Assembly: GCA_022824265.1 (NCBI GenBank)
Contig: JAJEAG010000066.1
Coordinates: forward strand, 1-42,638
Direction: 5' to 3'
Length of the DNA stretch: 42,638 nt
Origin: Candidatus Poribacteria bacterium
Lineage (GTDB): Bacteria > Poribacteria > WGA-4E > WGA-3G
This document shows positions 3,281-8,190 of the stretch, piece after piece. How positions within the stretch are numbered: the stretch's first letter is position 1; each line of letters opens with the position of its first letter. Under the pieces are notes generated by a model. The model was not told the origin of the DNA. It worked only from the letters and a program-made list of their open reading frames with translations, and ran no database searches. A program made the position numbers and the translations under genes.

Positions 3281-4431
3281 ATGCGCACCTATAGATACAA
3301 GATACAAAACCATAAGCGTAATCGTCATCTGCAAAAAGACTTGCATGTCATTGCGCATGTCCATTTTGTTGCGTTGTGACAACGACACTACAGGATATAT
3401 GGACAATGCGAAAGCTATAAGCGACCGAGTGCGTTTGTGATGATCAAACATCTGACGAAACTGAAACGACTTGATAAATACTCGCACTGACTATTCCCTA
3501 TTCTTGGGTGTTGCAAGAGTGTATCCAACGTATAGATAGGGGCTGGCAGAACTTCTTTGCTAAACGAGCGAAACGTTCGCCAAAATTCAGAAGTCGACAC
3601 AAATACAAATCCATGACGTTTGATGGTAGCCAAGTCAAAATAGAAACCATTGACAAGACACATGGATGTCCGGTTGCGAAAATCCGTATCAATAGAAGAT
3701 GGTATCGCTTCTGATATAGTAGACCGATTGAAGGTCCTATCAAACGAGTTACCGTCAAGAAAGACGTAGTAGGCGATTGGTATATCACGTTCACAACAGA
3801 TGAAAAAGGACTTGAACCCGCACCTAAGACTGGTAAGACAGCAGGGTTTGACTTCGGGCTCAAGGACTTGCTTATCTGTTCGGATGGCACGAAATATCAA
3901 TCGCCAGAGTTCTATAAATCTGCTTCTAAACGGATCAAGCGTGCAAGTCATGCGTTGTCTCGGAAGCAGAAAGGCAGTAACAATCGCAACCGCGCAAGAA
4001 AAGATTTGGCACGTGTGCATCTGAAAATCAATAGACAACGCGAAGACCATCATTGGAAACTCGCACTTAAACTTGTCCGAAACTTTGATGTCTGCTACTT
4101 TGAAGACCTGAACCTTGAAGGCATGAAACGACTTTGGGGTAGAAGGGTGTCCGATTACGCATTCGGAGACTTCATCCAGAAAATCAAGTGGCAAGCACAA
4201 AAACGAAGCAAGCACGTTGTTCAGATAAACAGATGGATACCGACAAGTAAAGTGTGCCATGCCTATGGTCAAACTCAGATGTTCTTTGATTTGAATATCC
4301 GTGAGTGGTATTGCTATAACTGTAAAATCTTTCATGATCGTGATATAAACGCTGCTATAAACATTCATAAGGTTGGGGCATCAACCTTTTCAGGAGAAGA
4401 CGTAACACCTGCTTCGGCAGGTTGTCTTTGA
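3281..4431 (+). pseudogene. tnpB: RNA-guided nuclease TnpB (OrfB), degenerate
   Basis: Reading from ATG 3281 gives a TnpB N-terminus (MRTYRYKIQNHKRNRHL). The frame is broken by TGA at 3377-3379 and 3488-3490, a frameshift between 3490 and 3508, and TGA at 3712-3714. From 3715 it is open to the stop at 4429-4431. The RuvC-like core survives: Asp in GFDFGLKDLL, Glu in YFEDLNLEGM and Asp in FHDRDINAAINI. The zinc ribbon is damaged, because the first pair reads CHAY instead of C-x2-C while the second pair, CYNC, is kept. TnpB is an element-encoded, omega-RNA-guided DNA nuclease. This copy should be inactive. The long minus-strand frame over it is a shadow. Confidence 0.88.
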
Positions 4432-4481
4432 TGATAGAAGAATCTCAGGCATTTAGGCTTGGGAGTATGTCAAACTTTAAC

Positions 4482-4510
4482 TTGACATTTACCCAAAAAC
4501 GTTGTATCAT
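4482..4510 (+). promoter_or_regulatory. tRNA promoter
   Basis: TTGACA (4482-4487) and TATCAT (4505-4510) with a 17-base spacer lie 16 bases before tRNA-Lys and just outside the IS right end at 4473. Confidence 0.75.
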
Positions 4511-4526
4511 TATATTTTGTGAATTT

Positions 4527-4599
4527 GAGCCGTTAGCTCAGCAGGTAGAGCATCTGACTTTTAATCAGGTGGTCACAGGTTCGATTCCTGTACGGCTCA
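4527..4599 (+). tRNA. tRNA-Lys (anticodon TTT)
   Basis: A complete cloverleaf is seen: acceptor GAGCCGT pairs with ACGGCTC (4592-4598), D stem GCTC/GAGC, anticodon stem TCTGA/TCAGG around loop CTTTTAA with anticodon TTT at 4560-4562, and T arm ACAGG TTCGATT CCTGT. The discriminator is A. No CCA is encoded. It is cotranscribed with the tRNA-Glu 11 bases downstream. Confidence 0.95.
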
Positions 4600-4610
4600 C
4601 CTAACTATGC

Positions 4611-4685
4611 GCCCCCGTCGTCTAGCCTGGCCAAGGACACCGCCCTTTCACGGCGGCGACACGAGTTCAAATCTCGTCGGGGGTA
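4611..4685 (+). tRNA. tRNA-Glu (anticodon TTC)
   Basis: Acceptor GCCCCCG pairs with CGGGGGT (4678-4684), the first pair being G-T. The anticodon arm CCGCC CTTTCAC GGCGG carries TTC, and the T arm is CGAG TTCAAAT CTCG. The anticodon arm is the typical bacterial tRNA-Glu form. No CCA is encoded. Confidence 0.93.
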
Positions 4686-4692
4686 TTATACC

Positions 4693-4737
4693 AAAACAGA
4701 CCTAATCCGTATCTTATGGGTTGGGTCTGTTTGTTTT
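4693..4737 (+). terminator. Rho-independent terminator of the tRNA pair
   Basis: AAACAGACC (4694-4702) pairs with GGTCTGTTT (4724-4732), extended inward by G-T pairs. The sequence GTTTT follows. It lies 8 bases after tRNA-Glu. Confidence 0.75.
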
Positions 4738-4752
4738 CAATCATGTCTATTT

Positions 4753-4888
4753 TATTGTAGAATCCATAAATTATTTACACACTACGGTAGGTTCTATTTC
4801 CTAACCGAACCGGTGTTTACTCAATCTCATAGATGTGGTTAGAAAACCGAACTACCAAAGTGTCCAAGTAATTACGAATTTTACTATA
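4753..4888. repeat. MITE-1 family copy (TATAGTRAAATYC ends)
   Basis: The left end TATTGTAGAATCC and the right end GAATTTTACTATA are imperfect inverted repeats. Inside are a hairpin built on GGTAGGTT...AACCGAACC and a second half ending CTACCAAAGTGTCCAAGTAA. The same ends and internal order recur at 38233-38357 and 33174-33418, and one half recurs at 40905-40961. Confidence 0.7.
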
Positions 4889-5227
4889 ATCTGCAAATTC
4901 AACAATTGCGCGAAGTAAAGCTGCTCTGGGGTTCTTTGGATCAGATTCAAGAAATCTATCTGTTAAATCACGAGACTTTGGTAGCATCTCGATTGGAAAC
5001 CGCCAAAAATAGTTATGAATTCAAAGTCAGGATGGAAGTGTAGTCTCCATTCGTGCCCCCTTCCTCAATCTTTCTCTGAGATATTCAAGTATATTATCCT
5101 GTGTTTCATCATCCAGTTCCCAATCACCTTTTCCGTAAGCAAGTCCTTTGTTTGGTAATGAGTTGATAAAAGTATACCAGAAATCTGTGGAGTCGTACTT
5201 TTCACCCACTATGGTCCAATTCCTCAC
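4817..5227 (-). pseudogene. Broken gene of unknown function
   Basis: A 66-residue minus-strand frame (5227 to 5027, GTG start) has protein-like composition (VGEKYDSTDFWYTFINSLPN..., ending METTLPS). After its stop, two other frames continue with equally protein-like sequence: FHPDFEFITIFGGFQS, then FWRFPIEMLPKSRDLTDRFL and FLESDPKNPRAALLRAIVEF. The last frame runs into the MITE at 4888 and stops at 4817-4819 inside it. The simplest reading is a gene with two frameshifts whose 3' end was replaced by the MITE. I do not recognise the family. Confidence 0.4.
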
Positions 5228-5541
5228 ATCGGGTTTTTTATACCCGCCAAATCATTAAGGTGTTTCTGTAACCCATAAGCAATAGTAACGTTAAAAATAT
5301 AATAGGGTTGGGATTTTATGCGCAAACACTTTGTTTCCTTAACATATACCCATTGTTAGTTAGTATCCACATTTGTGGTTTTACTGCGCAAGAATCCTAA
5401 CAGTCCGAACGGTTTATTATTTTTTGGACTTTTTTGGGTAGGTTAGTTTTAACCGTTCGGCCCCCTTTTTATATCTTAATTAAATATAAGAAAAATTGAA
5501 AACGACGATGCAATTGCAGATTTATTAAAGGAGACTTACTT
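5228..5541. other. Intergenic region with a long hairpin
   Basis: No gene is seen. A 10-bp perfect inverted repeat, CCGAACGGTT (5405-5414) and AACCGTTCGG (5451-5460), encloses 36 T-rich bases. CCCCCTTTTT follows at 5461-5470. It lies about 70 bases before the GrpE-like gene and could be a terminator or a leader attenuator for it. Confidence 0.5.
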
Positions 5542-7167
5542 ATGGCAGCGAACAGTGTATCTGGTAGTTTTCGGGGTATTGAAGTGAGTTTTAGCCAAAG
5601 TGGACCCCATATTGTCATGAGTGTATTAAACACAGGAGAAGAAGGCAGACGTTTACGCGTGATGTTTCAACAGCAACCGCTCAGTGGTCGTGTCAATTGG
5701 ACATCATTTCAATTAACAAGAATGGCACAAGATGTAGTCGTCCCACCAGAGGTAATACATTCACATAAGTTGGCATTTTATGTTGATAGTCATGAACCTA
5801 TCGCCACCTATACTGAGAAGATATTGGAAGAGTTAAAACAGATCAGTAGCAGTAATCAAGAGGAAAAGCCTGAACCATCATCGGAACCTGCAGCTGAAAA
5901 CCAGACACTTGAAACACCTAATGTTGTTGAAGAAATTGATGACACAGAGAATCAACAACAGCAAGGAATTGATGATGTTAACTCAGCAACAGAAAATAAT
6001 TCCTCAATTCCACAACACATGGATGACGTTGTATCAGAAGAAGTACAAGAGAGTGAACATGAAAATGCTTATCCTGAAATGGATGTTGCTGCGAATGTAG
6101 AAGTTGAAATCTCTGATAACAATGTAGACATTGATGTGAACCATACTTCAAAACATGATACAGAACAGGACGATGTTGATAAAGAACATCCTGAAGGTTC
6201 TGATATACCAAAACGCAGGTCGCAATATATTGGAGACTTTCTACCAGATGTAAGTACTGAGCTTAGGTTTAAGATTAAAGTTCCTACGATGCCAAAAAGT
6301 GCTACCAAGAAACAAACGAATTTTATACCACCACGTGCTTCTGTTTCCTCAAACGGTAAAAACAAGAAAAATGGTGTCTTTGCCCAATTAGCAGGAGCAA
6401 TGGGGATTAGTTCTCATAACAAGAAAAAGCAATACTATCTTGAGCAAAACAAACATATACATGAGAAATTTCATGCAAATTTGGAAAAACTGGAATCGGA
6501 TTACAATACGGGTTCCGGTATACCACTTGACAATTGGGACCTTGACTCGTTAGATGAACAACAAACTGCCATTCTGCTTCTGAACCTCATGGTGAACGAG
6601 ATAAGTGAATGGCAAAAGGATGCAAAAAAGAACAGTAAGACTAAAGAAACTCTGGCTGAGGATCTTAAGAAGATTGAAGACGATTTGAAGCAAACTCTTA
6701 AACAGACAAGGGGTATAGATGCCCCCGCTCCAACTCTTTTTCCAGATAGGACTGCCTCATCTGACAAAGACCTTGAACATATCCAGAAAGACTGTGATAG
6801 TTATCTCAACCGTTTTTCTGAAAAGTTGGCATTACTTGAACAGAAACATGCAGAAAAAGTTAGAGTTTCTGTTTTTAAAAAGTTTTTACTTGAATTCGTT
6901 AGAGATGAACTATTTCCAACCGTGGCTAAGTACAGTTCACTTAAGTCTGTCCAAACAAGATTAAATTGGTTCCTTAGTTTAGTGGATTACGAATTGATAC
7001 CTATAGAACCAGGTAAAACAAAGTTTTCCCCTAATATCCATGAGGCTAAAGAAAAACGAAGCAGCGAATATGAATCCGATACGATTGTTGAAGTCATTTC
7101 ACCGGGTATACAATTAAAAGGTGGAGAACGGACAATCCAAAACGCTGTCGTGGTTCAAGCGGAGTAA
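5542..7167 (+). CDS. Acidic multidomain protein with a GrpE-like C-terminal domain
   Basis: The 541-residue product has three parts. Residues 1-95 look like a compact domain (GSFRGIEVSFSQSGPHIVMS...) that I do not recognise. Residues 96-230 are an acidic, low-complexity, probably disordered linker rich in E, D, N, Q and S. After a basic patch (to about 290) the rest is helical. The end resembles the GrpE nucleotide-exchange factor: helices around LLEFVRDELFPTVAKYSS, then LIPIEPGKTKFSPNIHEA (His500-Glu-Ala, compare the GrpE F-x-P-x-x-H-E-A block), then the beta-rich DTIVEVISPGIQL...AVVVQ. GrpE drives ADP release from DnaK. Here the module is fused to unrelated sequence, so a dedicated Hsp70 partner is possible but not seen in the window. 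The start has GGAG about 10 bases upstream. Confidence 0.7.
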   Translation: MAANSVSGSFRGIEVSFSQSGPHIVMSVLNTGEEGRRLRVMFQQQPLSGRVNWTSFQLTRMAQDVVVPPEVIHSHKLAFYVDSHEPIATYTEKILEELKQISSSNQEEKPEPSSEPAAENQTLETPNVVEEIDDTENQQQQGIDDVNSATENNSSIPQHMDDVVSEEVQESEHENAYPEMDVAANVEVEISDNNVDIDVNHTSKHDTEQDDVDKEHPEGSDIPKRRSQYIGDFLPDVSTELRFKIKVPTMPKSATKKQTNFIPPRASVSSNGKNKKNGVFAQLAGAMGISSHNKKKQYYLEQNKHIHEKFHANLEKLESDYNTGSGIPLDNWDLDSLDEQQTAILLLNLMVNEISEWQKDAKKNSKTKETLAEDLKKIEDDLKQTLKQTRGIDAPAPTLFPDRTASSDKDLEHIQKDCDSYLNRFSEKLALLEQKHAEKVRVSVFKKFLLEFVRDELFPTVAKYSSLKSVQTRLNWFLSLVDYELIPIEPGKTKFSPNIHEAKEKRSSEYESDTIVEVISPGIQLKGGERTIQNAVVVQAE

Positions 7168-7170
7168 CAA

Positions 7171-8190
7171 GTGGTTACTCAAGAAAAGTTACTTCATAAC
7201 ATCTCACAGATTCCACAAGTGAATATTGGGCATTTCCCTACTCCTCTTGAGGAATGCCCACGTCTATCTGAAGCACTTGGTGGTCCTCATATTTACATCA
7301 AACGCGAGGATTGTTCTGGGTTAGCCATCGGTGGCAATAAAGTTAGACAATTGACATTCACGATTGGTGACGCTGTGCATCAAGGTGCAGATACTATCGT
7401 ACACGGGGCTGCATCACAATCTAATCACTGCCGACAAGCAGCTGCAGCATGTAGTAAACTTGGTTTAAAATGCTATCTACGTCTTGCACGGGATCATAAA
7501 AGCATCGTGCAAGGTAATTTACTGTTAGACCATCTTGCGGGAGCAGATGTTGAAGTTGTGGATATCCCATTCGGACCTGAATTAGAAGAATATAAATTGA
7601 AGTTTGCTGAGAAATTAGAAGCAGATGGACTCAAACCTTATGTCGTTACTTTTCCCCGTTCAACTGCTCTTGCTGCGGTTGCATTTACGTGGTGTGTCGC
7701 TGAAATACATGAACAACAGAACCAAATTGGTATTGATGCAGATTGGATATATGCCTCATCAGTAGGTGGAACTCAAGCAGGCTTGGTTCTGGGTACAAAA
7801 GCACTCGGTATGAAACTAAAGACTTATGCATGTGCTCCGATTCTCTGGGAAGGAAAGATTGAACGGATATGTGATGCAGCCAATTCCGCTGCGGATATAT
7901 TAAATCTTGATACCCGTGTGATAGAATCAGATATCCTAAATACAGATGATTATATCGGTGAAGCTTATGGGTACTTAACTCCAGAATGTATCGCTGCCCT
8001 CAAATTGGTAGCAAGCACTGAAGGTATTTTACTTGATCCTGTCTACACTGGGAAGGCAATGGCATGCCTTATTGACCATATCAGAGAGGGAAGATTAGAT
8101 TCCAACGATACAGTCATCTTCCTGCATACTGGTGGAACTCCTGCCCTGTTCGCATATAATGAAGAATTAGTTGAAGAACATAATATATAA
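7171..8190 (+). CDS. PLP-dependent D-cysteine desulfhydrase / ACC deaminase family enzyme
   Basis: The 339-residue protein is of the fold-type II PLP family. Lys57 in IGGNKVRQL is the expected PLP Schiff-base lysine. Further landmarks are the substrate loop GAASQSNHCRQAA (about 80-92), SSVGGTQAGL (about 196-205) that grips the PLP phosphate, and the C-terminal VIFLHTGGTPALFAY. Members open D-cysteine to pyruvate, sulfide and ammonia, or deaminate aminocyclopropane carboxylate. Sequence alone does not decide between them, though D-cysteine desulfhydrase is the more general assignment. It starts at GTG, three bases after the preceding stop, suggesting translational coupling with the GrpE-like gene. 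Confidence 0.88.
   Translation: MVTQEKLLHNISQIPQVNIGHFPTPLEECPRLSEALGGPHIYIKREDCSGLAIGGNKVRQLTFTIGDAVHQGADTIVHGAASQSNHCRQAAAACSKLGLKCYLRLARDHKSIVQGNLLLDHLAGADVEVVDIPFGPELEEYKLKFAEKLEADGLKPYVVTFPRSTALAAVAFTWCVAEIHEQQNQIGIDADWIYASSVGGTQAGLVLGTKALGMKLKTYACAPILWEGKIERICDAANSAADILNLDTRVIESDILNTDDYIGEAYGYLTPECIAALKLVASTEGILLDPVYTGKAMACLIDHIREGRLDSNDTVIFLHTGGTPALFAYNEELVEEHNI

Follow-up and report, generated by a model that had tools for sequence, protein, structure and literature searches.

In Candidatus Poribacteria, bacteria that are mostly associates of sponges, we find a real and conserved gene whose 541-residue product combines a probable, divergent GrpE domain at its C-terminus with the architecture of a tether, and this protein is probably a specialized Hsp70 helper that is anchored at one site within the cell. 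GrpE itself resets Hsp70 chaperones. The gene lies in a window of 42,638 nucleotides (the whole stretch of DNA that was analyzed, which is contig C53 of genome G000), and the closest named records are Candidatus Poribacteria MAGs with identities of up to 90%. Our preferred reading, to which we give an even chance, is that of a tethered, lineage-specific Hsp70 co-chaperone with a divergent GrpE end and with DnaK as its most likely partner. The homology had been proposed in an earlier sequence-only reading of the window and now finds support in profile comparisons and in shuffle controls, and the mechanism is one that we infer from the architecture and the context described below.

The layout of the protein is given in Table 1. 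In an alignment of 11 sequences including the window protein, with a mean column identity of 70%, the conserved blocks are residues 1–98, residues 240–265 with their basic surroundings, and residues 288–541. Residues 99–224 contain 36 Asp and Glu residues versus 5 Lys and Arg residues (net −31). The basic stretch carries the motifs F-x-I-K-V-P-x-x-P-K-S and G-x-x-x-x-L-A-G, and it possibly serves as a docking or membrane-surface segment; a transmembrane segment is not apparent in the 541-residue protein (maximum 19-residue hydropathy 0.63). A tether had already been suspected from the sequence, and this view gains from the combination of a conserved N-terminal domain with a variable acidic linker, and from the recurrence of the N-terminal domain in soluble paralogs. 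The acidic linker had been placed directly in front of the GrpE-like part; it exists, but it is separated from that part by the basic stretch and by some 100 helical residues.

Table 1. Features of the window around the gene of the 541-residue protein
Feature	Position	Strand	Basis
Ribosome-binding site GGAG	5530..5533	+	Sequence; upstream of the ATG of the 541-aa ORF
Core GrpE-like protein, 541 aa	5542..7167	+	ORF with ribosome-binding site; orthologs in 56/58 family genomes
N-terminal beta-rich (Ig-like?) domain, residues 1–98, presumed targeting	5542..5835	+	Conservation; strands at block pLDDT 47–70
Variable acidic linker, residues 99–239, net −31	5836..6258	+	Composition; gapped, poor conservation; pLDDT <50 over 106–245
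Conserved basic stretch, residues 240–287, net +9	6259..6402	+	Invariant alignment columns; composition
Helical region, residues 288–390, additional to the GrpE match	6403..6711	+	Conservation, predicted helices
GrpE-like domain (probable), residues 406–541, helices then beta-wing	6757..7164	+	Pfam, NCBIfam, hhalign and shuffles
Beta-wing-like tail, residues 484–541	6991..7164	+	Column-by-column alignment with GrpE
PLP-dependent enzyme (D-cysteine desulfhydrase/D-cysteate sulfo-lyase-like)	7171..8190	+	3-bp gap after the 541-aa ORF

GrpE was the top Pfam family for the 255-residue C-terminal domain (E 2.3e-4, 21.3 bits, under the cut-off of 25.8), with a match spanning residues 117–252 of this domain, and the top NCBIfam match was the GrpE model PRK14139 (E 1.7e-4), accompanied by seven other GrpE models. 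When the own genome was searched with Pfam GrpE, the window ORF reached E 2.9e-5 and 25.2 bits (29.6 with neighbors; cut-off 25.8), and it was the third and last match, behind the canonical GrpE on contig C77 and GrpE2 on contig C3. GrpE was not listed at E ≤ 1 when the full-length protein was scanned against Pfam; five of 18 family members scanned at this threshold matched Pfam GrpE and five matched PRK14139, and in the 39-genome search E ≤ 0.001 with Pfam GrpE was reached by only 2 of 22 core orthologs. In a profile comparison with hhalign, 17 core orthologs aligned with 31 Poribacteria GrpE sequences at a score of 30.2 (E 0.0016), which was reached by none of 150 column shuffles (mean 15.0, maximum 22.3), and the reversed core profile scored 16.2. 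The last 75 columns alone scored 27.4, again above all of 150 shuffles (maximum 20.9). Column by column, the alignment extends over the domain's last helix and its entire beta-wing, and the NCBIfam match, the hhalign score with its shuffles (at an hhalign probability of only 16% for the core C-domain) and this alignment agree that the sequence signature of the GrpE beta-wing is present. The order of helix, P/F-x-P-N-x-H-E-A motif and tail that had been read from the sequence is indeed found, with F-S-P-N-I-H-E-A at residues 495–502 of the 541, whereas the GrpE-like end, which had been put at 170 residues, is nearer to 135 (residues 406–541). Judged from these comparisons, it is very probable that the last ~135 residues are homologous to GrpE and represent a divergent GrpE helix and beta-wing. 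Structure prediction contributed little: AlphaFold gave a mean pLDDT of 52.0 for the full protein and of 52.2 for residues 287–541, with 29–43 in the beta-rich tail, which is too weak to show the fold and left no usable beta-wing; the helices of the C-terminal domain are predicted in the monomer model only. With these weak models, Foldseek and VIA-align returned only common arrangements and no GrpE row, which excludes nothing; with the full protein as query, phmmer gave no match to a PDB chain at E ≤ 10, and a PDB profile search with the family alignment gave one unrelated chain (E 0.19).

Canonical GrpE (PF01025; 1DKG, 4ANI, 3A6M, 8GB3; mitochondrial GrpE homolog 1) has the beta-wing sequence pattern and the preceding helix in common with the window protein. 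Bacterial GrpE normally has 170–220 residues, in contrast to the 541 residues found here, and the window protein differs further by its N-terminal Ig-like domain, the acidic linker, the extra helices, a beta-hairpin that is two residues longer, and the absence of dnaK and dnaJ from its neighborhood, so that it conforms to a canonical grpE gene neither in length nor in genomic position. A GrpE-like architecture is described in the accessible part of PMC12987570, in which the word “fusion” occurs zero times.

The C-domain alignment detected core orthologs in 56 of the 58 genomes of Poribacteria family f1 (32 core rows by their position in the tree, the others by open frames of 513–627 aa); in G011 (73% complete) and G063 (93%) no core ortholog was found. 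A first search had given matches in 23 of 39 genomes. Altogether 57 of 84 Poribacteria genomes matched, and the same 57 were recovered from a wider set of 386 genomes, in which there was no match outside the phylum. The 57th genome, G031, belongs to another family and has only paralogs of the kind described in the next paragraph. The C-domains of core proteins and paralogs form one family (hhalign E 4.8e-44), and in a tree of 44 C-domains (12 module, 32 core) the split between core and module proteins received 100/100, with three long module branches being flagged. Within this tree, the module copies of G015 and G075, which are members of family f1, cluster with G031, and this grouping suggests that module copies moved between families by transfer. 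A relative was found neither on plasmids, with one module paralog C-domain as query, nor on viral contigs.

Eight genomes (G008, G015, G019, G021, G031, G064, G071 and G075) contain one to three further GrpE-like proteins, and in seven of them these paralogs sit in a module with a Tubulin_2 protein and one lid-less Hsp70; in G021, the contig ends inside the module. The Tubulin_2 label comes from Pfam in G008, G015, G019 and G031, and from BLAST in G064, G071 and G075. The module Hsp70 begins with a CxxC-rich region (by eye), has Ig-like matches, retains the DFGTT and DFGGGT motifs in 7/7 rows, and possesses the ATP-binding motifs together with a segment that aligns with the beta substrate domain, and according to the alignment it stops where the lid of DnaK begins. 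Its hairpin segment comprises 32–56 residues (7/7 rows), as compared to 24 residues in the DnaK of genome G000 and 18 in its second Hsp70; a long hairpin is linked to GrpE-dependent Hsp70s in the accessible part of PMC10825016. In all seven modules, a GrpE-like protein carries a transmembrane-like segment (hydropathy 2.75 or more), a soluble GrpE-like protein is additionally present in five, and in G008 the C-terminus of the module Hsp70 continues into a GrpE-like domain, which gives a fusion protein of 1209 aa. The soluble module proteins have the N-terminal domain in common with the window protein (hhalign E 1.3e-9 with 15 of the 17 core rows; reached by 0/150 shuffles). As the paralogs are encoded beside a lid-less Hsp70 and are once fused to it, the family is linked to Hsp70 by context. 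The modules also encode a protein that matches transglutaminase weakly (E 0.04) and a large one whose matches all stay below the cut-offs. Moreover, all seven contain a protein of ~417 aa (L048:10719-11969 and homologs in L049, L050, L052, L140, L141 and L142), for which neither of the two scanned copies could be assigned confidently to a family. In G075 and G064, the module is followed by cysteine-synthase-like and PAPS-reductase-like genes (L140:2331-4109 and L142:14688-16466; by eye).

PF13809 is equated in the accessible part of PMC9871819 with the FtsZ-like proteins of Makarova and Koonin (2010), who distinguish two families, FtsZl1 and FtsZl2. In the accessible part of the latter work (PMC2875224), FtsZ-like operons are described with vWA, kinase, GTPase and OmpA-type partners and with a DnaJ cysteine-rich-like domain, and Hsp70, DnaK and GrpE occur zero times in its main text. 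The paralogs of the window protein are found in such a module, with a membrane-anchored copy, and the Poribacteria modules have Hsp70 and GrpE-like genes, whereas none are named for the operons in the text cited. The window gene itself is not in a Tubulin_2 operon, and genome G000 has no Tubulin_2 match; weak partial matches of 20–30 bits occur in G005, G010, G013 and G020. Among the titles and abstract openings listed for FtsZ-tubulin and Hsp70, Poribacteria and GrpE, Tubulin_2 and Hsp70, and GrpE fusions or paralogs, none describes this family.

These observations allow us to weigh other views of the C-terminal domain. It is rather unlikely, though it has to be taken seriously, that the domain descended from GrpE but lost the exchange activity and now acts as a scaffold or adaptor in the form of a dimer, recruiting DnaK, or no protein at all, to a site. 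The divergent sequence, under the curated cut-off for the C-domain alone, and the extra helical region would agree with this, as would the fact that GrpE of canonical strength (E below 1e-30) is also present in 20 of 22 core-bearing genomes; what argues against a loss of activity is that the C-domain is conserved, with identities to the window protein of 63–95% within the genus and 48–52% to the other two genera, that the invariant columns include beta-wing positions, and that the paralogs remain with an Hsp70. A chance resemblance, with the C-domain being an unrelated helical plus beta fold, appears improbable. The scores are weak, as is the probability given by hhalign, the module paralog profile alone does not rise above its controls (32 of 100 shuffles score as high), and the fold searches gave no structural support, but shuffles failed twice to reach the observed scores, GrpE came first in two libraries, and one genome has the GrpE-like domain fused to an Hsp70.

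With regard to the partner, genome G000 encodes two Hsp70s, a canonical DnaK and the 531-residue Hsp70_2 on contig C3, and with the module Hsp70 as query only the same two genes were matched. A separate canonical grpE exists on contig C77, with dnaJ beside it (by eye). Like the window protein, GrpE2 on C3 is a second GrpE-like protein, and it is paired with its own Hsp70; in contrast to the window protein it has 242 aa, adjoins its Hsp70, and lies above the Pfam cut-off when scanned whole. The sequence-only reading had considered a dedicated DnaK-like partner, and this idea agrees well with the paralogs and their lid-less Hsp70 in the Tubulin_2 module, but it is not supported for the window protein, as its own genome offers only DnaK and the GrpE2-paired Hsp70, and as the full-length DnaK is the only detected Hsp70 in G005 (94% complete), G018 (96%), G001 (84%) and G004 (81%), all of which have the core gene; MAG incompleteness could hide further Hsp70s in such counts. 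By exclusion, DnaK is left as the most likely partner for the core protein, since Hsp70_2 has its own GrpE and was not detected in these four genomes. For the same reasons, we rate Hsp70_2 low as the partner: it is present in the own genome, but its adjacent GrpE, its hairpin segment, shorter than that of DnaK, and the lack of a match in the four core-bearing genomes argue against it, which makes this alternative quite improbable. At the position of E. coli GrpE R183, which we take to contact DnaK, Arg is found in 18/18 core rows and in 0/11 module rows, a split that would agree with two clades acting on different Hsp70s. Residue arguments of this kind are soft, because the canonical GrpE of the own genome has a Gln at this position, and because mutation of GrpE sites that touch the NBD in the crystal left function unaffected according to the accessible part of PMC10825016. 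In single genomes the canonical machinery appears incomplete: no GrpE match was seen in G020 (92% complete), which we do not take as a true absence, G012 (93% complete) gave a match of the GrpE2 type alone, although DnaK and the core gene are present in both, and a full-strength DnaK was not found in G008. These missing genes may be assembly gaps.

The window gene is placed between an adenylosuccinate synthetase region and the gene of the PLP-dependent enzyme, which is the next gene on the same strand in 24/24 loci (21 genomes, three of them counted twice). The gap between both genes is 2–3 bp in 19/19 loci of genus g1, 3, 5 and −116 bp (an overlap from the chosen start) in g2, and 82 and 155 bp in g3, and enzyme and core protein are probably translated together. 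The enzyme scores best with the D-cysteate sulfo-lyase and D-cysteine desulfhydrase family, below the equivalog cut-offs. Least probable of all is an assembly factor specific for this enzyme, which the constant adjacency and the short gaps would favor, as the eight module stretches contain no homolog of the enzyme (best BLAST E 0.36), and as such enzymes, to our knowledge, usually need no dedicated chaperone. Upstream, 20 of the 24 loci have a gene for a secreted protein of ~1200 aa with LVIVD repeats and a sorting-tail-like end, one copy being cut and further away; of the four loci that lack it, three (L047, L063 and L065) are short or truncated in this region. The window instead has a piece of an IS605-type transposase, tRNA-Lys and tRNA-Glu in this place (3868-5541), and an inverted repeat, CGAACGGTT / AACCGTTCG, lies shortly upstream of the gene at 5406-5459 (by eye).

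In the tethered co-chaperone that we prefer, the C-terminal GrpE domain would probably dimerize, and its beta-wing would open the nucleotide cleft of an Hsp70, most likely of the general DnaK. The N-terminal Ig-like domain, carried on the disordered acidic linker of ~140 residues with the basic stretch behind it, would bind a fixed partner or surface, and DnaK would be released or recycled at the place to which the N-terminal domain binds. Bacterial GrpE is usually regarded as a diffusible partner of one DnaK, and a conserved, linker-tethered GrpE-like protein with Hsp70-associated cousins suggests that bacteria localize Hsp70 exchange, and it provides the uncharacterized FtsZ-like systems with a chaperone component, which is testable in vitro. 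A more far-reaching idea, which we put forward only tentatively, is that tethered GrpE-type exchange factors peculiar to Poribacteria run an Hsp70 machine around a membrane FtsZ-like (Tubulin_2) filament, and that the window protein may belong to a core branch standing on its own, through which the general DnaK reaches a related structure. If this were true, Hsp70 exchange would be controlled in space, beyond stress alone.

Some observations concern other GrpE genes. On contig C3 of the own genome (L005:266-7946), grpE2 and hsp70_2 are followed by four genes that share an N-terminal region of ~130 residues, which resembles a J-domain without HPD (by eye) and is joined to FGE-sulfatase or WD40 domains; a J-domain was not among the matches listed for the three of these four genes that were scanned. 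Fusions of a helicase with GrpE were considered as members of the family and rejected, as Pfam clearly recognizes GrpE in them and the remaining parts are unrelated. These giant ORFs (L107:5115-9389 and L109:6747-10199) join a UvrD/Rep helicase to a GIY-YIG domain and to an unambiguous GrpE domain, with additional S1 repeats in L107, and similar giant ORFs, seen only as GrpE matches in long frames, occur in G005:C139 and G016:C137.
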